This document shows positions 2 through 21,195 of a stretch of DNA of 35,129 nt, piece by piece. Position 1 is the stretch's first letter, and each line of letters opens with the position of its first letter. A program made the position numbers and the translations under genes. The notes beneath the pieces were generated by a model. It worked only from the letters and a program-made list of their open reading frames with translations. It was not told the DNA's origin and ran no database searches. The DNA is from Microcaldota archaeon (GTDB lineage: Archaea > Micrarchaeota > Micrarchaeia > Micrarchaeales > CABMGC01). The stretch spans positions 1-35,129 of the forward strand of contig DAHXKV010000002.1 in assembly GCA_027366155.1 (NCBI GenBank), written 5' to 3'.

Positions 2-2443
2 TTCAACAACTACTGGAACTTCGCAGGAACAAGCCTTCCTACGGGCTGGACCTCGGCAACAACGCCAGGCTCAGGAAACACGGTAACAGTCAGCAACGGC
101 CTGCAGTTATATGTCTCCGGAGGTCCATCAAGCGGCGGAAGTCAGCAACCGGCATACGCCTATACTATGTACACAACTCCAATATCCAACTCAAACACCA
201 TGGTGGAAGAAGCCTCTGGATACCTGAACAACGACTATGTTCCAGGATACGACTATGTTGTCTTCTCTCCAACAGGATACTTCACCGAAACAACCGGAAT
301 CACTACAAGCAATCCCCTCTCCGTATTTGACCAGTACAAAGGACTAACCCTTCAGGAGGTGAGCGGTGGACAGAACTTCTACATGCAGGACAACAGCGGA
401 ACAGTTACTTACCTTTCTGCACCACCATGGATATCCAATCAGAACCCCCCTCTCTCAGTCTATTCAACCGTAATCGAGAACAGCTCGATAACGGGAAGCA
501 GCAGCGACTTTGCATACCTCAATTATACCGAAATCGGCAGCATATCCGCAAGCACGCCAAGCAGCAGCTATGTAGGAACCGGGCTAACCTTGGATTTCGA
601 TAACGGCCCCGCGCAGGAAAACCTTTACTGGATACGCACCAGGGACCTTCCCCCTAACGGCGTGATGCCTGTTGTTATCATAGGCTCCCAGTCTCAAGCC
701 TCAGACGTATTCGACCTAAGCGGACATAATTACACCGGTACTGGAACCTACGTTTCTCTAACTGCAAATCCAAACTCATCAATTTATTTTGGAGGTATTT
801 CAAAGCCGAGCAACAGCGGGAACCAGATCACCTTGAAGCTTCCTACCGGAATATCTTATTTTGTCCCAGTAAACATAATAAACTCCCAATCAATAAGCTC
901 GTCGAATAACTTCCAGCAGATGGTTACTGTCGACAGCGCAGCATACTCGTCGTACGAAGCTTCAAACCTCCAGAACATTGAGTTCTTCTACGCAAACGGC
1001 ATCATAATAAACTCATGGCTCGAGAGCGGCAACTCTAACGCCGCAACCAATACAATATACTGGCTGAAGATAGGCCCGCAGATACCTGCCTCGAACCGCC
1101 TCACAGTATACATGGGCTTCGCCTCTCAGTCAACAAACCTCTTCAACACTGCAACCACCGGCGAAGCACCGGAGCTGACCTGTTCCAACCCCTATGTTAC
1201 GGCAAAATGCTCCAACTATGCAGAGTACGACAACGGAGCAAACGTTTTCAATTTCTACACCAACTTCGCCGGTTCAAGCCTCCCATCCAACTGGAAAGAC
1301 ATCAATGGTGTGCAATACGTTGTAGCCAACGGCATCCAGATTACTGGCTATCCGAATGGCAATTCATACATAAACGCAACAATACCTGCATTCCAGCAGG
1401 GCAATGTAATCGATGCTTTAACTATCTTCTCGCCTTCTTATGATGAAAACTTTGAATTCGGAGGCATAGGCAACGGGGGCATTCAAGGCGGCAACGTGCT
1501 CGGGCTTTACGGGTTTGGCGCAACCGGCGAAGGCTACGAGCCGTTGTTCGCTTCTAGCTCCGCATCTGTTGGAACTAACTATCCATATCCCCCAACTGCA
1601 AATGCCCCACAGGTCTTTTCGGTCGTCTACAATGCAAGCATTGTCAATGACGGCATATACGACACAGTCTCTCTATGGAACTATACGAATCCGTATCCGT
1701 ACCCGGGCCAATATGGAGCCTCATATCTCTATCCTTCCGGAAATCCGATGTTTCCTGCTGTGGCTGGAACCTACTACGGGGCGCAAAATCCAACAGACCA
1801 GAATACTACATGGATAAGGGTGAGGACAAACCCTCCAAAAGGAGTCATGCCCTCTGTCACATTCGGGCCGGTGAGTTCCTACAAGACACTGTCCCTATAT
1901 TCCCTTTCGGGATCTGTCATTTCGCTACCGTCAAACAGCTTTTCCTCCAACTCCATATTCATAGAGCCGCAGAACACTGGCATGACTGCCTCATTGAACT
2001 TCATGATGTCCGAACAGCAGTCCTCCGAGGCTTCAGCAAATGCAGTCATCCTCTCGACAAACAGCAATGCCCTCTGCGGCTACGCGCTCACCATCGCATC
2101 CTCCAATTCGATTGACATGTCGGACAACTGCGGCGATTCCTACATTGGGACATACTCGTTCAAGCCGGATACATGGTACAACCTTGCGGTAACTATCTCT
2201 CCGGGCAGCAATGAACTCGAAACGTATTACGTTGACGGAACCGAGGTCAGCCAGGGGGCAAGCCCCTCATGGAACTCGGGAAACCTCTGGACAACCCTCT
2301 TCATCGGCGGGAACTTTGTCGGAGACATATACGGCATGCAGCTTTACAACTCAAGCCTCTCTCCGCAGCAGGTCTACCAACTGTATTCAGACACTCCGCA
2401 GTCGTACACTATTCAGACTGCCCAGCTCTCAAATGCGCCTTGA
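2..2443 (+). CDS. Large surface/secreted protein with DUF2341-type module(s) and C-terminal LamG/concanavalin-like domain; 5' end outside the window
   Basis: The frame of ORF 167..2443 is open back to base 2 (FNNYWNFAGTSLPTGW..., the same motif as FNFYTNFAGSSLPSNW inside the ORF). Contains FQQMVTVDSAAYSSYEASNLQNIEFFYANGIIINSWLESG, a closing motif WIRVRTNPPKGVMPSVTFG, and a LamG-like C-terminus (TWYNLAVTISPGSNELETYYVDG). Confidence 0.85.
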   Translation, partial: FNNYWNFAGTSLPTGWTSATTPGSGNTVTVSNGLQLYVSGGPSSGGSQQPAYAYTMYTTPISNSNTMVEEASGYLNNDYVPGYDYVVFSPTGYFTETTGITTSNPLSVFDQYKGLTLQEVSGGQNFYMQDNSGTVTYLSAPPWISNQNPPLSVYSTVIENSSITGSSSDFAYLNYTEIGSISASTPSSSYVGTGLTLDFDNGPAQENLYWIRTRDLPPNGVMPVVIIGSQSQASDVFDLSGHNYTGTGTYVSLTANPNSSIYFGGISKPSNSGNQITLKLPTGISYFVPVNIINSQSISSSNNFQQMVTVDSAAYSSYEASNLQNIEFFYANGIIINSWLESGNSNAATNTIYWLKIGPQIPASNRLTVYMGFASQSTNLFNTATTGEAPELTCSNPYVTAKCSNYAEYDNGANVFNFYTNFAGSSLPSNWKDINGVQYVVANGIQITGYPNGNSYINATIPAFQQGNVIDALTIFSPSYDENFEFGGIGNGGIQGGNVLGLYGFGATGEGYEPLFASSSASVGTNYPYPPTANAPQVFSVVYNASIVNDGIYDTVSLWNYTNPYPYPGQYGASYLYPSGNPMFPAVAGTYYGAQNPTDQNTTWIRVRTNPPKGVMPSVTFGPVSSYKTLSLYSLSGSVISLPSNSFSSNSIFIEPQNTGMTASLNFMMSEQQSSEASANAVILSTNSNALCGYALTIASSNSIDMSDNCGDSYIGTYSFKPDTWYNLAVTISPGSNELETYYVDGTEVSQGASPSWNSGNLWTTLFIGGNFVGDIYGMQLYNSSLSPQQVYQLYSDTPQSYTIQTAQLSNAP
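908..1170 (+). repeat. Copy A of ~260 bp near-identical DUF2341-coding segment
   Basis: DNA aacttccagcagatggttactg...gcaaccaccggcgaagc nearly identical to 31546-31808 (+) and to the reverse complement of ~34280-34540. Confidence 0.9.
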
Positions 2444-6373: not shown

Positions 6374-6608
6374 TGTGGTGTGCGGATGGCTTACGGTCAA
6401 CATGACTGAGGAAGCTCTCTCCATGCTAAGGTCGCGAGGCCCAAGGCCCCATTCGGAGCAGAAACGAACCGCTGCGGCAAAACGGCTATGACAATACGAG
6501 CCGCCGGTGCGGATGAAACGTGCCGATGCGCGCCCGATGTGCATGCAAGGCAAAACGCCGCTTAGTCGAATGCCATCTAAAACAGAAGAGGGGCTACGGC
6601 ACACCACA
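6374..6608 (+). ncRNA. rnpB: RNase P RNA
   Basis: P1 tgtggtgtgc (6374-6383) pairs with gcacaccaca (6599-6608). P2 gatggc (6385-6390) pairs with gccatc (6572-6577). P3 hairpin ggtca-aca-tgact. CR-I-like gaggaagctctctc and CR-V-like acagaagaggggctacgg form P4, agc[u]cucuc / gaggggcu, with a bulged U. The P2/P4 pseudoknot order is correct. Confidence 0.88.
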
Positions 6609-7159: not shown

Positions 7160-8044
7160 CTACCTGTTCTCCTCCAGCATTCCGAGTATCTGTTCCTTGG
7201 TCGGGTTCCCCTGCTTAACCAGAGGCCCGTTCTTAAGCGTTATGTCCAGCTCCTCGTAAGAAGGCCTGTTGTTCTGGTAGAAAAGCCCTATCGGTATCTT
7301 CTCCCAGTTAGTCTGGAAGTCCTCCACTGCCTTTCCAAGCGCCTTTCCCAGGTCTGAAGGATCATGATTCGACTGGTCAAGCTTGTATATCCTGGGGCGG
7401 AACCAATCGTATGTATTGTCATGGTTGAATGTAACGCATGGGCTGAAAACATCAACCAGCGCAAAGCCCTTGTGCATTATTGCACCCTTTATCATCTCTG
7501 CAAGGTGGACTGTGTCTCCAGAGAAGCCCCTGGCAACGTACGTTGCGCCTGCGCTTATGGCAAGGGCAAGCGGATTGACTGGCATCTCTATGGCGCCGAA
7601 AGGCGTCGACTTGGTCTTGTGGCCCATCATCGCCGTAGGCGAGGTCTGCCCTGTAGTGAGTCCGTACGTCTCGTTATCCATCACTATGTATGTGAGGTTT
7701 ATGTTCCTCCTGGCCGTGTGCACCAGATGGCCTACGCCTATGCCATATCCGTCGCCGTCTCCGCCTGTGCCTATTACTGTGAGGTCATGGTTAGCAAGCT
7801 TCGCGCCGCTTGCTACAGGGAGCAGCCTTCCGTGAAGGCTGTGCATTCCGTATGTGCTGAAAGGCTGCGGCATAGAAGAACTGCACCCTATTCCCGAGAC
7901 TATCATCGCGTTGCTCTTGTCTACCTTAAGGTCCGTAAGGGCCTTCGTTATTGCGGCATATACTCCAAAGTCACCGCATCCCGGGCACCAGATAGGCTTT
8001 ACTCCTGATGAATACACCTGTTTTGTAGTCGCTTCTATTACCAT
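7160..8044 (-). CDS. 2-oxoacid:ferredoxin oxidoreductase, beta subunit
   Basis: CPGCGDFGVYAAI, GIGCSSSMPQPFSTYGMHSLHGRLLPVASGAKLAN and TPP-binding GGDGDGYGIGVGHLVHTARRNINLTYIVMDNETYGLT. Confidence 0.93.
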   Translation of the reverse strand: MVIEATTKQVYSSGVKPIWCPGCGDFGVYAAITKALTDLKVDKSNAMIVSGIGCSSSMPQPFSTYGMHSLHGRLLPVASGAKLANHDLTVIGTGGDGDGYGIGVGHLVHTARRNINLTYIVMDNETYGLTTGQTSPTAMMGHKTKSTPFGAIEMPVNPLALAISAGATYVARGFSGDTVHLAEMIKGAIMHKGFALVDVFSPCVTFNHDNTYDWFRPRIYKLDQSNHDPSDLGKALGKAVEDFQTNWEKIPIGLFYQNNRPSYEELDITLKNGPLVKQGNPTKEQILGMLEENR

Positions 8045-8048
8045 TGCA

Positions 8049-9791
8049 TCACTTCCTGCTTACCAGCGGCACGACGCCATCGGCGATCTCCTTCCCGGTA
8101 AGCGCCTCTCCATCGTACTTCAATATCCTGTCCTTTATCTCTATGCCAGTATTCATCATTATCACCTGCGATAGCTGCGCGGTGTAATTAACCTCTACGT
8201 CTATCAGTTTCCTGCCCTTAAGCATCTCGGCAGTCTTCTCCCTGTCAAGAGGCATGAGGTAGCTGAATGAGATGACACCCGCATTGAATCCCATGCCCTT
8301 CAGTATCTCCACCGCTTCCATTGCGGGCTCAGTGGTTGAGCCGAAAGTGACAAGGAAAAAGTCCGCGCCCTCATTGTATATTCCGGGTGCGAACACCTTC
8401 TCGTTCTTGAGCATTGTGTCTATCTTATCCATTCTCTTCTTCATCATCTTCCTCCTTACCTCGACGTACTTGTCTATTCCTGACAGCGCGTCGCTAACAA
8501 GGTCCCCATACTCATCATGCTCGTCGCTAGGCGCAACGTGCTCGGTGCCCGGAGTCCCGGGAAAAGCCCTCGGCGAGATGCCGTCCGCAGAGTAAAGGTA
8601 TCTCTTGAACCTACCCTGCTCTGGGTTAGACGCCACTACCTTGCCCCTGTCTATAGTTATTGAATTGGTGTCAAAGCCTTCTATGGTCTCCACGTGCTCT
8701 GATATGTAAAGGTCCATCATTATGATGACGGGGCACTGGTACCTGTCGGCCAGATTCAGCGCCTCTGCGGCTATGTAAAAGGATTCCTCAACGCTTCTCG
8801 GCGCTACGACGATCCTGGGGAATTCGCCCTGGGAGGCATGCATGACGAAAAGGAGGTCTCCCTGTTCTGTCTTTGTGGGAAGCCCGGTGCTGGGCCCTGT
8901 CCTCTGCGATTCTACTACCACCAGCGGCGTCTCGAGCATTCCGGCAAGCCCGAGCCCCTCAACCATCAGCGAAAAGCCGCCTCCGCTGGTGCCGCACATT
9001 GCCCTCACCCCGGTATTCGAGGCGCCTATCGCCATGTTTATCGCTGCAATCTCGTCCTCTGTCTGCTTGAAGAAGACGCCGCGGTCCGCATGCGCCGCAA
9101 ACCAGTGGAGAATGCTGCTTGCAGGAGTCATCGGATACGCAGAGTAGAACTTGCAGCCTCCTGCATACGCGCCTATCGCAAGCGCGGTGTTGCCGTCAAG
9201 CACATACCTTGATCTGCCGTCCCCCTTTATCTGGTGTATGGTGCCCAGCCCCTCGATTCCGTATCCCTGCGCCGCTGCCATCACGTTGCTATTGACTACC
9301 TTCTCTCCCTTCCTGGAGAACATGCTTTTTATGACCTCTTCGAATACCTTCATCTCTATTCCGAGCAGTCTGAGCGTGGCGCCTATTGCAACTGTGTTTC
9401 GCATTATCGGATCTCCGCTGACCTGCATTGCTATGTCGAGCATTGGTACTGGGGCAAGCCTGTACTTCGAAGCGTCAAGCGAATCAACCTTTATCTTTGT
9501 AGGGTCGTATATGACCGAGGCGCCCTGCCTGAGGTGCGGTGCCTGGTTTGTTATTGCATCCTGGTTAAGCGCGATAAGCACGTCTATCTGGTCTCCGTGG
9601 CTGTGCAGCTTGTTCTCAGCATCGCTGACCCGCACCTGAAACCAGACATGCCCGCCACGTATTATCGACTGGTAGCCGCGATAGCCGAATGCCTGCATGC
9701 CGTTCTTGGCAGCGACCTTCATTAGCAGTGCACCGCTCGACTCGACTCCGTCCCCATTTGCGCCCGCGATTCTTACAGTAACGTCTGGCAT
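8049..9791 (-). CDS. 2-oxoacid:ferredoxin oxidoreductase, fused gamma-alpha subunit
   Basis: N-terminal gamma domain (VRIAGANGDGVESSGALLMKVAAKNGMQAFGYRGYQSIIRGG), then YPMTPASSILHWFA and MCGTSGGGFSLMVEGLGLAGMLETPLVVVESQRTGPSTGLPTKTEQGDL; adjacent to the beta subunit. Confidence 0.93.
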   Translation of the reverse strand: MPDVTVRIAGANGDGVESSGALLMKVAAKNGMQAFGYRGYQSIIRGGHVWFQVRVSDAENKLHSHGDQIDVLIALNQDAITNQAPHLRQGASVIYDPTKIKVDSLDASKYRLAPVPMLDIAMQVSGDPIMRNTVAIGATLRLLGIEMKVFEEVIKSMFSRKGEKVVNSNVMAAAQGYGIEGLGTIHQIKGDGRSRYVLDGNTALAIGAYAGGCKFYSAYPMTPASSILHWFAAHADRGVFFKQTEDEIAAINMAIGASNTGVRAMCGTSGGGFSLMVEGLGLAGMLETPLVVVESQRTGPSTGLPTKTEQGDLLFVMHASQGEFPRIVVAPRSVEESFYIAAEALNLADRYQCPVIIMMDLYISEHVETIEGFDTNSITIDRGKVVASNPEQGRFKRYLYSADGISPRAFPGTPGTEHVAPSDEHDEYGDLVSDALSGIDKYVEVRRKMMKKRMDKIDTMLKNEKVFAPGIYNEGADFFLVTFGSTTEPAMEAVEILKGMGFNAGVISFSYLMPLDREKTAEMLKGRKLIDVEVNYTAQLSQVIMMNTGIEIKDRILKYDGEALTGKEIADGVVPLVSRK

Positions 9792-10673: not shown

Positions 10674-11930
10674 ATGGCCCACTCACCTAAATCTGCAAGA
10701 AGCGGCAGGGAAAGGAAACCTGCGGATGAAACTCCCGGAAGCATTCCGATGCACAGGCTGGAGGAACACTTCTCTCCGGGGGAAGCGGCAGCAAAGAGAC
10801 GGTCAATGATAGAAAAGCTGACGGGTTCCAGCCTAAAATCGGTAGGCTCGTCAGGACTTGATTATTCGGGCATAGTGAACAAGAACGCCGAAAACGTGAT
10901 AGGCTTCATGCAGATGCCTCTGGGGATTGCAGGTCCGATATCCGTCAGGGGCTCATATACGAATGGCGAGTTTTACGTGCCAATGGCCACTACTGAAGGT
11001 GCGCTGATAGCGAGCATAAACCGCGGCATGAAGGCCATAACCCTTTCCGGAGGGGCATACTCTGTTGTCACAAAAGACCTGATGACAAGGGCTCCACTCT
11101 TCGAGTTCAAGAGCGCCGGAGACGCTGTCGAGTTTGTCGCATGGGCAGAAAGTAACTGGAAAGGCATAACTGCAGCCGCAGAATCAACGACAACGCACGG
11201 CAGGCTGAAGGAGATGCTGCCATTTATCATGGGCAACAACGTCTGGCTCCGCCTCGGTTTCAGCACCGGCGATGCGATGGGCATGAACATGGCGACCATG
11301 GCGAGCGAGGCTGCATGCTCCTTCATAGAAGAAAACTTCCCGAAAGGGCATATGGTAACCGTAAGCGGAAACATGTGCTCCGACAAGAAGGAATCAGGAG
11401 TCAACAGCCTCCTGGGCAGGGGCAAGACTGTCATCTCCGAGGCCCTCATAACCGAAAGCGTGCTCGGCAACGTGCTCAAATCCAACGCCCAGGGCCTCCA
11501 CAACCTCAACATGAAGAAGAACTTCCTAGGCAGCGCCAGGGCCCTGAGTGGCAAGTTCAGCGGCCATTCCGCAAATGCGATTGCGGCAATCTTCGCGGCT
11601 ACGGGCCAGGACATAGCCCAGGTTGTCGAGAGCAGCGGATGCTTCACGCTCACCGAGCCGCGCGGCAGTGACCTTTACATCTCCGTGACACTACCCTCTC
11701 TCGAGATTGGAACTGTCGGAGGTGGATCATCGCTTCCGACACAGCGCGAGGCGCTCTCAATAATGGGCGTAAGCGGCGGAGGAAACCCTGCCGGATCAAA
11801 TGCCTCCAAATTCGCAGAGATAATAAGTGCAGCCGTACTTGCCGGAGAGCTTAACCTCCTTGCAGCGCAGTTCTCCAGGGATCTGGGAAAGGCGCACGGG
11901 AGGCTCGGCAGAAATTCAGGAGCGCGCTGA
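10674..11930 (+). CDS. hmgA: Class I HMG-CoA reductase
   Basis: [84 protein letters not shown]; upstream TATA gtttataatg. Confidence 0.93.
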
Positions 11931-12013: not shown

Positions 12014-12093
12014 TATACTAATATATAATCTTTTCTATCTCAGTATCTAATTGTATAGTAAAGTATAAATACTTATACTAAAGTATATGATTG
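12014..12093. repeat. Four phased ~20 bp AT-rich units (candidate operator/iteron array)
   Basis: Units at 12014, 12034, 12054, 12074: tatactaatatata / tctatctcagtatc / tatagtaaagtata / tatactaaagtata. Units 3 and 4 are 13/14 identical, units 1 and 4 are 12/14, unit 2 is degenerate. Confidence 0.6.
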
Positions 12094-12660
12094 CAGAAAA
12101 GCGTTGCCGACGCTATACAAGACGGCAGGGCAGAACAGCCCCTTTTCTGGGTGGTAGGAATGGAAGGAAAACAAAGAGGTGAGCCGAAGGAGGAAATGTT
12201 ATGGGAGGACCTGGAGAACGCACTGCTGCGGGCAGACAGGAGGAAAGCGGCCTACGGCCTGCGCGTGCACAGGAGCATGAAAAAAAGCATCTTCTTGCTT
12301 CTGGAAGCCGCGGGCATGGAGCCTACGCACAAGCTTGCGGAGGATCTCATTGGCTGCGTGTACCTACGGGCAGGGCTGATTCGGGACAGCAGGTATTGGC
12401 AGGAAGGTTTCGGAATAGACAAGGAGTACGAGACCATCGACTATACTGGGAAGGAAGGCATAAGGCTTTCGCAATCCTCAACAAACGAGGCGGTTGTCTC
12501 CCGCCGCCTCGCGGCCCCTCCTTGCGCCGTGCTCTTGGCAAACTCGGGCCCCATTTCCCCCCACCACACACGCCTCAGTGCCTGCCATATGGCACCCTCA
12601 TTATTTATATATCTGGCAAGTGCAATAATAATCAGTCTAAAGCGGCCAGACGTGAGATAG
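12091..12660 (+). CDS. Uncharacterised protein; real start (possibly ATG 12160) and C-terminus uncertain
   Basis: Charged helical core EMLWEDLENALLRADRRKAAYGLRVHRSMKKSIFLLLEAAGMEP. The 3' third overlaps a GC hairpin and a TATA-like element for the next gene, so a frameshift or disrupted end is possible. Confidence 0.4.
   Translation: MQKSVADAIQDGRAEQPLFWVVGMEGKQRGEPKEEMLWEDLENALLRADRRKAAYGLRVHRSMKKSIFLLLEAAGMEPTHKLAEDLIGCVYLRAGLIRDSRYWQEGFGIDKEYETIDYTGKEGIRLSQSSTNEAVVSRRLAAPPCAVLLANSGPISPHHTRLSACHMAPSLFIYLASAIIISLKRPDVR
12486..12511. other. GC-rich hairpin inside the 3' part of ORF 12091..12660
   Basis: cgaggcgg (12486-12493) pairs perfectly with ccgcctcg (12504-12511), 10-nt loop. Confidence 0.6.
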
Positions 12661-12675
12661 ACGCGAGATTTTCAA

Positions 12676-13341
12676 ATGACAAAACAAACCACCTCAAGCA
12701 TGCGGGTTGCAGGGGAGCTTACTGAGGCAATCAGGACAATAGACAGACTTATGCGCGAAAACAATGAGCTTCACAAAGAAAACAATGAGCTTCGCAGGCA
12801 TGCCCATGAGGACGCGCTTACCGGCATCGGAAACAAGAGGGCATTCCTTATCGAGTTTGAAGGGGCAGTGCACGCCTACCGCAGGGATTATCCCGGAACT
12901 GTTCCATTCTCGGTTGTGGTAATAGACGCGAACAACCTCAAGATAATCAACGACGCGCTGGGGCATGCGGCAGGCGACGACCTGCTAAGGGCCATAGCAA
13001 AAGGCATAGTCTCCACAACAAGGACCGGAAAAGACTTCTCCGCAAGGATAGGCGGCGACGAATTTGTGGTGCTGATCAAAGGGCCTGCAGACGCGTTCTC
13101 GATAAGGATACATAAGGTACTCGAGGCCATAGCTGCCAAAAACGGGCTCGGATTCCCCGTAAGCATCTCGTTGGGCAGCGTCTCGATAAATGAGATAGAC
13201 ACTGAAGAAAGGCTCTCATCTCCTACTGAAAAAATCATCAAATCAATGCTTGACATTGCGGATTCGAGGATGTACGAACACAAAGCACGCTCGAAGAACG
13301 GCAGAAATCCAGCTGCGATTGCAAGCGCAATCAGGCCGTAA
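12676..13341 (+). CDS. GGDEF-domain protein (putative diguanylate cyclase) with N-terminal coiled coil
   Basis: EDALTGIGNKRAF, VVIDANNLKIINDALGHAAGDDLL, ARIGGDEFVVL: intact GGDEF, ND..GH..GD and first metal-binding Asp. N-terminal heptads MRENNELHKENNELRRHA. Upstream TATA-like tatttatatatc ~12600. Confidence 0.92.
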   Translation: MTKQTTSSMRVAGELTEAIRTIDRLMRENNELHKENNELRRHAHEDALTGIGNKRAFLIEFEGAVHAYRRDYPGTVPFSVVVIDANNLKIINDALGHAAGDDLLRAIAKGIVSTTRTGKDFSARIGGDEFVVLIKGPADAFSIRIHKVLEAIAAKNGLGFPVSISLGSVSINEIDTEERLSSPTEKIIKSMLDIADSRMYEHKARSKNGRNPAAIASAIRP

Positions 13342-13966
13342 GCTTCGTGCTGCCTGCAAGGCAAAAGGCCTCAGCAACTATATCCTCAAAGAAATAATGT
13401 ATCTTCTCCTCCTCCAGTAGGGCAAAGCCGAGCCGTTCCGCAAAGCTGTTCAGCTTTTCCAAGCTGCTTAGCGAGCTTGCAACCAGGATCGCGACCCCTG
13501 TCCCGGAGAGGTGTACCAATGCCTCCTCGAGGAACCTCATGCTGGTCTCTATGCCTTCATCGCCTCCAGACCACATTGCGTCATCAGTCTCGCCGCCTGA
13601 CCTCAGGTAAGGGGCATTGAAAATGATTATGTCATAAACCTCACCTGCCCCCACCCCTGAGAACAGATCTGTCTGGATGAAGCTGAGGCCTGCAGGCAGC
13701 GAGTGGCAGTTGGCCAAGGCGTTTTTCCTTGCAAGTCCGACTGCATCTGGATTCATGTCGGCAAACGTCACCTCTGAAGCCAGTCCGCTGCACGCGGCGA
13801 ATATCCCCAGTATGCCTGTTGCGGTGCCCATGTCGAGAACCTTGAGCTTCTTGGATGCGCCAAGCCTCTTCAGGTACCTCCCCAGCATTCCTGCCGCGAG
13901 CTCAGAGTCTTCCGAAGGGGCGTATACCCCGTCCCTATTCTCGATGCGTATTGCAGAGTATTCCAT
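13331..13966 (-). CDS. HemK2/Mtq2-like class I SAM methyltransferase (release-factor glutamine methyltransferase family)
   Basis: DGVYAPSEDSELAAG, KVLDMGTATGILGIFAA, FADMNPDAVGLARKNA, IIIFNAPYL (NxPY). Confidence 0.8.
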   Translation of the reverse strand: MEYSAIRIENRDGVYAPSEDSELAAGMLGRYLKRLGASKKLKVLDMGTATGILGIFAACSGLASEVTFADMNPDAVGLARKNALANCHSLPAGLSFIQTDLFSGVGAGEVYDIIIFNAPYLRSGGETDDAMWSGGDEGIETSMRFLEEALVHLSGTGVAILVASSLSSLEKLNSFAERLGFALLEEEKIHYFFEDIVAEAFCLAGSTKLTA

Positions 13967-14022: not shown

Positions 14023-14586
14023 ATGGAAGAGATGCCTGCCTGGATGGAATGCGAAGACATCCTCTCAAGGGTTGAGGCAGAGCTCATGTCAGAAGCCTTG
14101 GAGCTGCTGCGGAAGGAGATGGATGCCGGCAGGATAAAGGTAGAAGGGAATGTTGCGGCATCATCCGAACTGACTGCGCAGGCCGAACGCGACCTTTTCA
14201 TAATGGAGAAGCTACTCGCCGACGAGCAAAACATGCGATACAGGTATGAAAACCTGGTCAATGCGGTTGAAGAGGGCCGCGAGACAAACCCGGAGATAGT
14301 ATCAAGGACGGAAGAGGTAAAGAGGTTCCTGCTTGTTGTCTCGCAGATATCCATAACCGTAAAGTATGCAAAGGTATTCTCCCTCTGGTTTCCCGAAGCC
14401 GGGAAGATGATGAAGGGCGGCAGCGCAAAGGAGATACTGCTTGAAACTGCAAGACAGGACAGTGAGCGCCCTGAGGCCGTATCCTTCATACTGAGCAACA
14501 AGGAGTTCAGAAAAAGCGAGGTGCTCGATGCCAGGGAGATTGAGATGCTTGCCGAGATATATAAAAGGTGCACAAATGGTAACTAA
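14023..14586 (+). CDS. Conserved-looking alpha-helical protein of unknown function
   Basis: Promoter-like gatatatataatgtattt just upstream; ends overlapping the start of endonuclease IV, suggesting an operon. Chosen over antisense ORF 13980..14573. Confidence 0.65.
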   Translation: MEEMPAWMECEDILSRVEAELMSEALELLRKEMDAGRIKVEGNVAASSELTAQAERDLFIMEKLLADEQNMRYRYENLVNAVEEGRETNPEIVSRTEEVKRFLLVVSQISITVKYAKVFSLWFPEAGKMMKGGSAKEILLETARQDSERPEAVSFILSNKEFRKSEVLDAREIEMLAEIYKRCTNGN

Positions 14587-15421
14587 CGTGGAAAAGGCAG
14601 GCCAAAGGCTGAGACTCGGATATCATGTCTCGGTAGCCGGAGGCATCTTCAATGCATTCGAGAGGGCTGAGTCATTGGGCTGCAACTCGATGCAGATCTT
14701 TCTGAGCAACCCGCGCGGATGGGATGTAGGCCATCTGCCTCCTGAAGAAATAAGCAGATTTGCGGGGATGCGTGCCAGGCACCCCATAGACCCGGTAGTG
14801 GCGCATATGCCATACCTTCCAAACTTATCCACTTCCGACAGAGCCAAAATGAAAAAGTCAGTAGAATCCCTATCCCGCACCCTCTCACTGGCCGGGTCAC
14901 TCGGGGTAGACTATGTCGTGGCGCATCTGGGAAGCCATGGCGGCGCGGGCACGGAGAAGGGAATCGTGAACGTGATATCTGCAATAAACGCAGTGGAAAT
15001 ACCCGACAATGTGGCACTGCTCCTTGAAAACACTGCCGGAGGAACCAACAGCGTAGGCTCCTCGCTGGAAGAACTCGCGAGGATAAGGGAGGGTGCAGCA
15101 GACCAAAAAAAGATAAGATTCTGCTTAGACACCTGCCACCTCTACGCGGCGGGTTATGACATTGCAGATGCCGCGGTGGCCAACAACATCAAGAAAAAAC
15201 TGGGTCCTGACAGTATAGGCATCATCCATCTCAACGACGCAAAGTTTGAGCTTGACTCAAAGAAAGACCGCCATGCAAACATAGGCCAGGGGTACATAGG
15301 CGAGTCGGGCTTCAGGAAATTCCTTGGAAACGGTTGGGTAAGGTCAATCCCGCTGATACTCGAAACCCCGGAAAACACGCCCGAAGAGATATTGCTTGTC
15401 AGGAGGCTTGCTGGCGGGTAA
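14576..15421 (+). CDS. nfo: Endonuclease IV (AP endonuclease)
   Basis: GYHVSVAGGIFNAFERAESLGCNSMQIFLSNPRGW, VAHLGSHGG, LLENTAGGTNSVGSS, RFCLDTCHLYAAGYD, IIHLNDAKFELDSKKDRHANIGQGYIG, PLILETPEN. Confidence 0.95.
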   Translation: MVTNVEKAGQRLRLGYHVSVAGGIFNAFERAESLGCNSMQIFLSNPRGWDVGHLPPEEISRFAGMRARHPIDPVVAHMPYLPNLSTSDRAKMKKSVESLSRTLSLAGSLGVDYVVAHLGSHGGAGTEKGIVNVISAINAVEIPDNVALLLENTAGGTNSVGSSLEELARIREGAADQKKIRFCLDTCHLYAAGYDIADAAVANNIKKKLGPDSIGIIHLNDAKFELDSKKDRHANIGQGYIGESGFRKFLGNGWVRSIPLILETPENTPEEILLVRRLAGG

Positions 15422-16269: not shown

Positions 16270-17868
16270 ATGGAATACAAAAATAAAAAAACAGGATCAA
16301 GAGGAACAGCGTATGTCACATCAAGGCTTGTGCTCAAGTCGCCGTTTTTATCCCTTCCGGCATGGCGCTTCCGCAAGCATTTCCTAAAGAGGAGATTCCG
16401 GTTTGGGAAAGGAATGAACCGACATGCCCTGATTGTCGGCGAGAGTGGCAGTGGCAAGTCCAACGCCTGCCTCTCCATTATTTCCTACCTTCATTCCGAA
16501 GGCTGCAGGATCATGGCCCTGGATCCCAATGGCGATTATCTTTCCATCGCGGACATTATTGGTGCAGACGTGTATGACGCGTCAAGGAGGCCTATAAACA
16601 TAATGGAGACATGGGCCGAAGGCCGGCAGGCCGAAGACGAGATATCCTTGATGCTCTCCAAGCGGCTGAGGTTGGGCTATATCCAATCCTCGCTACTCAG
16701 GCGGTGCATAGGGTATTGCTACTGGGCAGGACGCATGCGTGGAAGAAAGCCCACGTTTGACGACCTCATAGCAACGGCGAATGCATTCCGGAAAAAAGCA
16801 CCGCAAGGCGAGTCCAGGATCCTTGATACTATATTGGGAAGGCTCTACCTGATCTCGTCTGGAAGCCAAGCCTGGGCAGTCGACTTCCAGAAAGCTGTCT
16901 CAAGAAACAGCATCTTCGTGCTATCCGAACTGCGGTCTGAGGAGTCGCAGTCGGTATACATGGAAGGGATATTGCGCAAGCTCTATGCCGCAATGCTCTC
17001 CGGCAGGCTGCACAGGCCCACCTGCCTCGTCATAGACGAAGCGAGGAAGGTTGCAGGCAGTCCCGCACTGGGAAGGCTTTTTGCAGAAGGCAGGAAGTAC
17101 GGGCTCGGAATAATAACAGTCTCACAGAGGGCAAGCAATCTCGACGAGAACGTACTAAGCAACTCCTCTCTGCTTCTCGCATTCTACCAGCGCGAGCCGC
17201 GCGAGATGGAATACATCTCGAGATACATCTCCGGAGGCAGCGAGATGGGCAGGATTGCAGAGGTGCGCAGGAGAATAAGGAACCTGCGAAAAGGCGAGGC
17301 TGTAGCCCTGGACTCCCAAGCCGGAGAGCCGTTCACGCTAATGTTCTCCAGGTTCAACGGAAACGCGACGAGCTTGGAGCATCTTATAGGAAAGGTTTCA
17401 CTGTCAGGTTCCACCGAGCCATCCATATACAATCATGCATTAAGGGCAGGTTTCAGTCATGCAGAAACCAAAGCCAGACTGGAATGCCTGCTTGCGGAGG
17501 GAAGAATCGGCAAGCATGAAATAAGATCCGGGAGGCTGAGAGGCACATGGTACGTCTCATACTTCAGAAACAGCCCGGAGCACGATCTTTTCGTGCGCCT
17601 AATAAGCAAAAAACTCACGCTCCTCGGGATAGAGAATGAGGTAGGAAACGGAAGCCGTGGGCCTGATGTGATAGCCAACATCTCCGGAAAGAGCGTAGCC
17701 ATCGAGTATGAGACGGGAAGCAAGAACCCCGAAGACACGATAAGAATGATAGAATCGAGGGTGCGGAGCTATGGTACTGTCATAGTGGTTGCGCCAGAAG
17801 CCGTTCTTGGCAGGTACAAATCCATAAATGGGGTTTCATGCATCTCAGACGCTGAGGCCTTTGAGTAA
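16270..17868 (+). CDS. HerA/DUF87-like ATPase with C-terminal winged-helix and PD-(D/E)xK-like nuclease-fold region
   Basis: Walker A VGESGSGKSNA, DPNGDY, Walker B CLVIDEARKV, GLGIITVSQRASNLDENVLSNSSL; C-terminal GPDVIANISGKSVAIEYETGSKNPEDTIRMIESRVRSYGTVIVVAP. Confidence 0.85.
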   Translation: MEYKNKKTGSRGTAYVTSRLVLKSPFLSLPAWRFRKHFLKRRFRFGKGMNRHALIVGESGSGKSNACLSIISYLHSEGCRIMALDPNGDYLSIADIIGADVYDASRRPINIMETWAEGRQAEDEISLMLSKRLRLGYIQSSLLRRCIGYCYWAGRMRGRKPTFDDLIATANAFRKKAPQGESRILDTILGRLYLISSGSQAWAVDFQKAVSRNSIFVLSELRSEESQSVYMEGILRKLYAAMLSGRLHRPTCLVIDEARKVAGSPALGRLFAEGRKYGLGIITVSQRASNLDENVLSNSSLLLAFYQREPREMEYISRYISGGSEMGRIAEVRRRIRNLRKGEAVALDSQAGEPFTLMFSRFNGNATSLEHLIGKVSLSGSTEPSIYNHALRAGFSHAETKARLECLLAEGRIGKHEIRSGRLRGTWYVSYFRNSPEHDLFVRLISKKLTLLGIENEVGNGSRGPDVIANISGKSVAIEYETGSKNPEDTIRMIESRVRSYGTVIVVAPEAVLGRYKSINGVSCISDAEAFE

Positions 17869-19215: not shown

Positions 19216-19314
19216 TTGGTGCAGGGACTCACCAGGTACCCCGGCAGCCGCACCGCGCCGCATGCAATCTTTTATAATAATGCTAGTCCAAATAAGTCCA
19301 GAATCTGTGTAAAT

Positions 19315-20070
19315 ATGGCTTCACTCAAACTAAACATACTCGTATACCTGACACTCATTCTCGTCGTGCTTGCCGGAGGCACGATAGGTACCTACTTTAT
19401 CGGCAAATACTACAACGGGTTCAATGTCCCCATACGCACGCCACTCGAGGCCGCATACTTCACTGTGATAACCGTAACCACTGTAGGCTACGGCGACATA
19501 GTTCCCGTATCTAACTCGGCAAGGATATTCGTCATGGCTCTAATACTCTCTGGAATCGGAGTGCTAATCAGCGCCGTAACGCTGATATCCAACGAGTTTG
19601 TCAACGCGAGGGTTGCAAGGATAACCGGAAGCCTGAACCCTTTTGAGAAGCGGATGCTTAAGAACCACATAGTGCTCGTGGGCACCGACTCAGTAAACAT
19701 GTCGCTGATGGTGAAGCTGAAGGAAAAGAATGCAAGGTTCATCGCGCTGAGCTCAAACCAGGAATTTGTCAGCGAGCTCAGGGAATCAGGCATAAAGGCA
19801 TTTTACGTAGACGAGACGAACGAGGAGCAGATGAAGTCGTTTGAGCTTTCCAAGGCCAAATCCATAATAATCGACATGCGCGACAAGTCGCACATGGTCT
19901 ATGCGATACTTCTCATAAGGACGCTTGCAGAGAAATCGAAGATGGTCGTCATAGCACACAACAAGGAGGAAGAGACGCATATGAGGAGCATGGGCGCCGG
20001 GATAGGCATACTCAATCCCTTCGAGATGGCCTCCAACGTGCTCATGCAGAAGCTCGAAGAACTGAAGTAA
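19315..20070 (+). CDS. Two-TM potassium channel with RCK/TrkA-N-like domain
   Basis: Selectivity filter TVITVTTVGYGDIVP between two TM helices; C-terminal KNHIVLVGTDSVNMSLMVKLKEKNARFIALSSNQE. Confidence 0.9.
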   Translation: MASLKLNILVYLTLILVVLAGGTIGTYFIGKYYNGFNVPIRTPLEAAYFTVITVTTVGYGDIVPVSNSARIFVMALILSGIGVLISAVTLISNEFVNARVARITGSLNPFEKRMLKNHIVLVGTDSVNMSLMVKLKEKNARFIALSSNQEFVSELRESGIKAFYVDETNEEQMKSFELSKAKSIIIDMRDKSHMVYAILLIRTLAEKSKMVVIAHNKEEETHMRSMGAGIGILNPFEMASNVLMQKLEELK

Positions 20071-20094: not shown

Positions 20095-21195
20095 ATGTCT
20101 GTGATAATGCTAAATGTAAATCCAAACCGCCCCGACTTATCAAAGATAAGGCTGGCCGCTAAGGCGATAAAAAGCGGAAAGCTGGTTGTCTTTCCTACTG
20201 AAACCGTTTATGGCATAGGTGCAAACGCGCTTGACGGAAAGGCCTGCATGAAGATATTTCGAGTCAAGGGCAGGCCGCAGGACAACCCACTGATAGTCCA
20301 TGTCTCAAGCATGGAGATGGCCGAGAGGATTGCGGAGATACCTCCAAAGTACAGAAAACAAATAATGGCTTTATGGCCAGGTCCACTTACCCTAATCCTC
20401 AAGGCGAAGGCCGGAATACCTAAAGAAGTCACCGCAGGCCTGCCTACTGTTGCGGTGCGGTTCCCCAGCAACCTCGTCGCGCTTGCACTCATCAAGGCAG
20501 CTGGCGTACCGATAGCCGCACCAAGCGCAAACGTCTCGAAAAGGCCCTCGGCGACCGAGGCTTCCCATGCAGCATCTTACTTCCGCAAGGGTGTTGCCTA
20601 CATAATCGACTCAGGCATCTCCTCGTTCGGCATAGAATCCACGATTCTCGACCTCTCGGGCTTTAGGATACTGCGCCCTGGCGCAATGACTGTTGAGCAG
20701 ATTTCCTCCGCATTCATGAAAAGGCCTATCCTCTCTCCTGAAGCCACCGCGAAGGGCGTTAAAGGAAAGCCGATAAGCCCCGGAATGAAATACCTCCACT
20801 ACTCCCCTGAAAAGCCTCTTTTGCTCTTCACTGGAAACCGTGCTGAGCTTGCCAAGATATTCAAAAGGCACGGCAACGATGCCGCCTTCATTGGCAGTGA
20901 GGAATCCTGCATGGCACTGGGAGACCTCGTGAAAAACAAGCTCGTCCTTGGAAGAAGAAACGACCAGCGAATGGCAGCCAGGAACCTTTTCAGGTACCTG
21001 ATAAAGCTGGACAGCCTGGATGTCAATTTTGGGATAGCCGAAGCCGTGCCGGAGAATGGCCTTGGAACTGCAGTAATGAACAGGCTCAGAAAAGCCTCCG
21101 GCAACAGGGAGTGCGCAAGTGCATATGAGGCGGAAAGGTTCATCCAAAAAATCAAGGCGCCCAAAATGCGTCACAAAGCGAAGTCCAGCCATTGA
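20095..21195 (+). CDS. Threonylcarbamoyl-AMP synthase, Sua5/YrdC family with C-terminal Sua5 domain
   Basis: KLVVFPTETVYGIGANALD, KGRPQDNPLIVHVSS, LWPGPLTLILKA, TVAVRFPSN, PIAAPSANVSKRPSAT; C-terminal SPGMKYLHYSPEKPLLLF. Confidence 0.94.
   Translation: MSVIMLNVNPNRPDLSKIRLAAKAIKSGKLVVFPTETVYGIGANALDGKACMKIFRVKGRPQDNPLIVHVSSMEMAERIAEIPPKYRKQIMALWPGPLTLILKAKAGIPKEVTAGLPTVAVRFPSNLVALALIKAAGVPIAAPSANVSKRPSATEASHAASYFRKGVAYIIDSGISSFGIESTILDLSGFRILRPGAMTVEQISSAFMKRPILSPEATAKGVKGKPISPGMKYLHYSPEKPLLLFTGNRAELAKIFKRHGNDAAFIGSEESCMALGDLVKNKLVLGRRNDQRMAARNLFRYLIKLDSLDVNFGIAEAVPENGLGTAVMNRLRKASGNRECASAYEAERFIQKIKAPKMRHKAKSSH

Follow-up and report, generated by a model that had tools for sequence, protein, structure and literature searches.

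c-di-GMP is regarded as a bacterial messenger. An open reading frame for a GGDEF protein in the window (the whole stretch of DNA analysed, 35,129 nucleotides of a Micrarchaeota contig) raises the question of whether the gene is truly archaeal and whether its product could work as a diguanylate cyclase. A census of 2018 accepted one archaeal GGDEF, in Methanocella, and doubted those of Micrarchaeum (PMC5847659). In 2021, more than 300 archaeal GGDEF BLAST hits were reported, many of them from Asgard and DPANN, and c-di-GMP was not detected in Haloferax or Sulfolobus (PMC8646023). Archaeal GGDEFs are considered to need confirmation (PMC10086821), and diguanylate cyclases are among the genes enriched in sediment-associated ultra-small genomes (PMC9938205). 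Our literature search found no paper on c-di-GMP signalling in Micrarchaeota.

In our best reading, held with good but not full confidence, the open reading frame encodes a soluble stalk-GGDEF protein, predicted to be a diguanylate cyclase, which is vertically maintained and works with a turnover enzyme and a receptor of unrecognised kinds. The family is already known; this is a well-authenticated new member in an unusual place and not a new kind of enzyme. The features on which the analysis was based are shown in Table 1.

Table 1. Features of the GGDEF gene and its surroundings, in positions of the window.
Feature	Position	Strand	Evidence
Archaeal RNase P RNA	6374..6608	+	RF00373 (RNaseP_arch), 97.4 bits vs 84
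2-oxoacid:ferredoxin oxidoreductase (POR) beta and gamma/alpha genes, block edge	7160..9791	-	gamma/alpha domains; synteny
HMG-CoA reductase, conserved upstream neighbour	10674..11930	+	PF00368, 408 bits; synteny
GGDEF protein, predicted diguanylate cyclase, 221 aa	12676..13341	+	ATG start, PF00990, TIGR00254, AlphaFold/Foldseek
N-terminal stalk helix (residues 2-44), presumed to dimerise as a coiled coil	12679..12807	+	AlphaFold model; dimerisation presumed
GGDEF domain, PF00990, residues 43-208	12802..13299	+	profile match
D84, first metal-binding Asp	12925..12927	+	invariant in bacterial alignment; 40/40 in order
N92 D93 ... G96 H97 ... G100 D101, guanine-binding region	12949..12978	+	alignments
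R116-T-G-K-D120, I-site-like stretch, one extra residue	13021..13035	+	alignments
GGDEF motif, residues 126-130 (G126-G127-D128-E129-F130)	13051..13065	+	sequence, alignment
K203, phosphate-binding Lys equivalent	13282..13284	+	alignments
HemK2-type methyltransferase, conserved downstream neighbour	13331..13966	-	TIGR00537 hemK_rel_arch above cut-off; synteny
187-aa protein, family unassigned, conserved in block	14023..14586	+	synteny
AP endonuclease/endonuclease IV type TIM barrel, block member	14528..15421	+	PF01261; synteny
HerA/FtsK-like ATPase, block member	16270..17868	+	PF01935; synteny
K+ channel with TrkA-N domain, two-helix, in block	19216..20070	+	PF07885, PF02254
Threonylcarbamoyl-AMP synthase (Sua5/TsaC), block member in several genomes	20095..21195	+	synteny

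Profile searches matched the 221-amino-acid product to the full PF00990 domain (E 7.6e-26; score 91.2 bits, cut-off 23.8) and to TIGR00254 (93.6 bits), and a sequence search found 48 distinct matching PDB sequences, most of them named GGDEF proteins or diguanylate cyclases. The AlphaFold model (mean pLDDT 91.4) consists of one helix at residues 2-44 (pLDDT 88-98) followed by the GGDEF fold. Foldseek analysis of the model revealed 106 PDB matches at E <= 0.001, the top ones being GGDEF structures, including WspR (3bre), SiaD (7e6g), GCN4-WspR (3i5c) and the coiled-coil DgcB (6ttr). The original prediction of a soluble protein with a coiled coil as its sole input domain agrees with the model, in which the N-terminus is predicted to be this one long helix, presumably a coiled coil.

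Comparison with known systems revealed the WspR GGDEF domain (3bre, 3i5c) to be the best fold match, sharing its catalytic residues with the window protein; in WspR, however, a receiver domain precedes GGDEF and the I-site is a normal RSSD, whereas the window protein has a stalk only and RTGKD. SiaD of P. aeruginosa (7e6g; E 3e-13, TM 0.74 on the query) is built alike, with a soluble stalk helix leading directly into GGDEF, but it is switched on via the stalk by SiaC and is about 21% identical; no SiaC-like gene was identified at the GGDEF locus. DgcB of Caulobacter (6ttr, with c-di-GMP) likewise combines a coiled coil with GGDEF, but is bacterial and about 22-24% identical.

The GGDEF motif, the ND..GH..GD substrate residues and the first metal-binding aspartic acid, which had been read from the letters as retained, are all present, and A195-D196 is also found in the alignments. 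Alignment with 33 bacterial relatives showed D46, T49, N53, D84, K89, N92, D93, G96, H97, D101, R124, G127 and E129 to be invariant. Across the order, the metal-binding aspartic acid is conserved in 40 of 40 rows, the guanine-binding asparagine in 39 of 40, the third and fourth letters of GGDEF in 39 of 39 readable rows and the lysine in 37 of 39. Like this one, most GGDEF proteins of the order consist of a stalk and a GGDEF domain; they are about 26-41% identical to the window protein. This usual build, the near-invariance of the catalytic residues at such identities, the PF00990 score and the match of the model to diguanylate cyclases argue for a cyclase.

The allosteric I-site, RxxD five residues before GGDEF, is common in this family but not universal. 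The shifted I-site (RTGKD instead of RxxD) noticed earlier was seen again: in R116-T-G-K-D120-FSAR-IGGDEF the aspartic acid lies five residues from GG as in WspR (RSSDLAARYGGEEF), and the arginine lies one residue further out than in RxxD. MAFFT aligned RTGKD as a one-residue insertion, and the ungapped HMMER alignment placed threonine at the arginine position. Longer loops are present in relatives too (RHGPD in G047; REESGD in G015 and G037), so the I-site loop is variable in the lineage. An RxxD with 5-7 residues to the motif occurs in 25 of the 38 order members and in 10 of the 32 nearest bacterial matches, the bacterial set being chosen by similarity and not a random sample. Such a commoner RxxD in the order is expected if the product is c-di-GMP.

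An active cyclase whose product is instead linear pGpG, the 3',3'-cGAMP of Hypr GGDEFs or a further cyclic nucleotide would explain why c-di-GMP partners are missing from the order, and specificity is unreadable from the motif alone; we nevertheless consider it distinctly improbable, as N92 and D101 are the guanine-reading residues of c-di-GMP synthases and RxxD is frequent in the order. Hypr enzymes have serine at the guanine-reading aspartic acid position, and the alignment shows aspartic acid (D101) here.

The assembly to which the contig belongs (61 contigs totalling 0.78 Mb; completeness 78%, contamination 0.39%) holds one GGDEF above the cut-off by profile search, the one described here. 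A bin contaminated with bacterial DNA, or a chimeric contig, is suggested by the mainly bacterial occurrence of GGDEFs, by the named database matches of the protein, which are all bacterial (28-42% identity), and by the doubt that the 2018 census raised for Micrarchaeum (PMC5847659). Against this, the same contig carries RNaseP_arch and a HemK2 gene whose score exceeds the cut-off for the archaeal NCBIfam model, as well as HMG-CoA reductase and a fused POR, and is archaeal. Furthermore, the block of genes for POR, HMG-CoA reductase, GGDEF, HemK2, the 187-aa protein, endonuclease IV and the HerA-like ATPase recurs whole or in part in 13 other genomes from six genera of one family (g1, g7, g11, g13, g26 and g27). 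These genomes are G002, G004, G011, G015, G017, G030, G031, G035, G037, G038, G046, G052 and G058, and TsaC is also among the neighbours. The distance from HMG-CoA reductase to the GGDEF gene downstream of it is about 0.7-1.4 kb in the window, in two cases in G002, in one case in G004 and also in G011, which belongs to another genus. Since a contaminant would not turn up at the same position in genomes that come from different species and were binned separately, contamination, which the original prediction had named as a threat to its claim, fails as an explanation, and we give it practically no weight. The synteny settles the contamination question for one archaeal lineage, where the GGDEF is genuine, and together with the active-site residues the archaeal contig supports the original prediction of a catalytically plausible GGDEF protein in an archaeon. 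At 0.49, the GC of the gene falls within that of its surroundings (0.49-0.58).

Several other genes around the locus were considered. HMG-CoA reductase and GGDEF are separated by an open reading frame at 12091-12660, part of which matches a region preceding the GGDEF of G031 at about 60% identity; it was set aside as a GGDEF partner, being shared only in part with one relative and replaced by a different open reading frame in the genus relatives. In other genera, a rhodanese-like gene of 110-127 amino acids (CxHGxxS) lies between GGDEF and HemK2 (L114, L118, L129, L130, L132, L134, L138, L139, L140 and L142); it is absent from the window and its genus, and related copies occur near the GGDEFs of G021 and G027. 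Its candidacy as a receptor was dropped, as it is rhodanese-like (PF00581 at 20.1 bits, just under the cut-off of 22.2) and not in the window. A defence role of the GGDEF locus was also set aside, with no PADLOC match. A protein of 758 amino acids that is probably exposed at the surface, and has a Laminin_G_3/concanavalin-like domain, is encoded at window positions 167-2443.

The occurrence of a GGDEF in an archaeon is thus confirmed, with the refinement that it is not an isolated oddity: 41 of 98 relatives (49 of the 98 being at least 90% complete) have a GGDEF above the cut-off, these 41 spanning both families of the order, and the phylum sample has 58 such genomes among 156. Within the genus it was found in three of six genomes, all six of them incomplete. 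Profile search of four archaeal control genomes found no GGDEF. Outside the order, several GGDEFs are longer, with an N-terminal, probably sensory part and the classical GGEEF ... GRNR end. Analysis of the five close pairs of relatives where dN/dS was computable gave values of 0.12-0.34, and the gene is under purifying selection in these relatives. Some relatives with the block have GADEF or GGDEY, which suggests that selection on catalysis may be relaxed in places. At the conserved locus, five genomes (L132, L137, L139, L140 and L142) have GADEF in its place.

The phylogeny against bacterial GGDEFs that the original prediction called for was run as a quick tree. This tree was star-like, with 43 of 88 inner branches left open for weak support, and it allows no bacterial donor to be named. 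When the 38 order rows were held as one clade, the likelihood was 14 units above that of the free search (AU p 0.70); the GGDEFs of the order are therefore compatible with one clade, which is allowed and not proven, in a tree unrooted against bacteria. Holding the 14 block rows as one clade was 28 units worse (p 0.25), so that a single clade of block GGDEFs is neither rejected nor established. The C-terminal 'ADSRMYEHK' was discarded as an archaeal signature, since nearby bacterial sequences share it and it was itself a search pattern.

Recent arrival as cargo of a mobile element or from a bacterial partner, with no fixed role in the archaeon, would fit the patchy presence of the gene, the strong divergence between copies and the location of other GGDEFs of the order at other loci. 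It is contradicted by the one position between housekeeping genes that is kept across genera, by the purifying selection and by the single clade for the order, which was not rejected. Phage or plasmid cargo was rejected on the matches found, all of which are below 60% identity. Overall, we hold the cargo explanation to be very unlikely and retain the vertically maintained cyclase.

The statement that no EAL, HD-GYP or PilZ partner is in the window holds, and the partners are missing from the whole order too. The proposed whole-genome search for c-di-GMP receptors and phosphodiesterases was run, and profile search found no EAL, PilZ or HD_5 in the whole genome, where diverged members and the missing part of a 78% complete assembly leave room for them. 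Among relatives, EAL above the cut-off was found in 0 of 98, PilZ in 0 of 98 and HD_5 in 0 of 22 GGDEF-positive genomes; MshEN was found in 0 of 156 genomes of the phylum sample. HD_5 was above the cut-off in 11 of these 156, all outside the order, and the two HD proteins of the window genome match only the general HD family. The cyclase reading is weakened by this lack of a known phosphodiesterase or receptor in the order, so that no partner supports a signalling use, and also by the patchiness of the gene in its genus, the altered I-site and the GADEF and GGDEY relatives.

Degenerate GGDEF domains elsewhere serve as binding switches or scaffolds. That the window protein is likewise a GGDEF-fold protein that has ceased to make c-di-GMP, and serves instead as a scaffold for dimerisation or as a switch that binds GTP or c-di-GMP, would agree with the missing phosphodiesterase and receptor and with the GADEF relatives. 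Two wHTH-REC-degenerate GGDEF proteins in the same genome add to this, since they indicate that a non-catalytic use of the fold exists there. Pure binding, however, would not need the complete catalytic residues seen here and kept near-invariant in the order, and we consider this explanation unlikely, though the least so of those weighed against the cyclase.

These two degenerate proteins are of about 390 amino acids (G000:C12:4352-5524, L182; G000:C7:8226-9401, L183). Throughout the order, related proteins match GGDEF weakly; they resemble those of Micrarchaeum that the 2018 census doubted. The weak matches in open reading frames of about 400 amino acids were considered as another palm-domain enzyme, and proved to be wHTH-REC plus degenerate GGDEF. 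The response regulator of Micrarchaeum acidiphilum with REC and an inactivated GGDEF (PMC5847659) is GGDEF-derived like the two proteins of the window genome and probably belongs to the same lineage; it is degenerate, such proteins scoring about 18-26 bits in the order, whereas the window protein is complete and lacks REC. Possession of two proteins of this type points to Micrarchaeota as the most likely phylum of the window genome.

If the preferred reading of an active diguanylate cyclase is followed, the N-terminal helices would pair as a parallel coiled coil, placing two GGDEF domains face to face in a homodimer. Each domain would bind one GTP with Mg2+ at D84 and D128/E129, N92 and D101 would read the guanine and K203 would contact the phosphates; two attacks by 3'-OH groups would then yield c-di-GMP and two pyrophosphates. 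As no sensor domain is fused to the protein, its activity probably depends on expression, on the GTP level or, by analogy with SiaC on SiaD, on a partner docking on the stalk. Since the I-site is shifted by one residue, c-di-GMP probably inhibits its own synthesis only weakly. The c-di-GMP would be read and removed by proteins other than EAL, PilZ, MshEN and HD-GYP, and we infer the existence of such a receptor and phosphodiesterase. We put at somewhat under an even chance the possibility that c-di-GMP from these stalk-GGDEF enzymes serves the order as a second messenger native to archaea, which a dedicated phosphodiesterase and receptor of unrecognised kinds would remove and read. If c-di-GMP is made, an order with the cyclase and with no recognisable EAL, HD-GYP, PilZ or MshEN is a good hunting ground for a new receptor or hydrolase.

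TrkA-N K+ channel genes, such as that of the window, occur near GGDEF genes in several contexts, also outside the block in other genera, and in two families (L115, L120, L122 and L131). In G021, G077 and G078 the channel gene is directly beside GGDEF, in G036 the two are separated by about 2.5 kb, and at locus L180 the channel gene occurs with no GGDEF. The channel may be an effector of the GGDEF protein, a weak lead in which the neighbourhood may be due to chance.

Elsewhere in the phylum sample, G186 (L188/L202, G186:C42) has one 863-aa frame with GGDEF (191 bits) and EAL (238 bits), the only EAL above the cut-off in the 156 genomes, which may be a recent transfer or contamination. G103, from another order of the phylum and with a GGDEF in its genome, encodes a convincing HD-GYP-like protein (L203:88-795; HDIGK...HHE..GSGYYG), one of the 11 HD_5 matches, so that a fuller c-di-GMP pathway may exist in that lineage.
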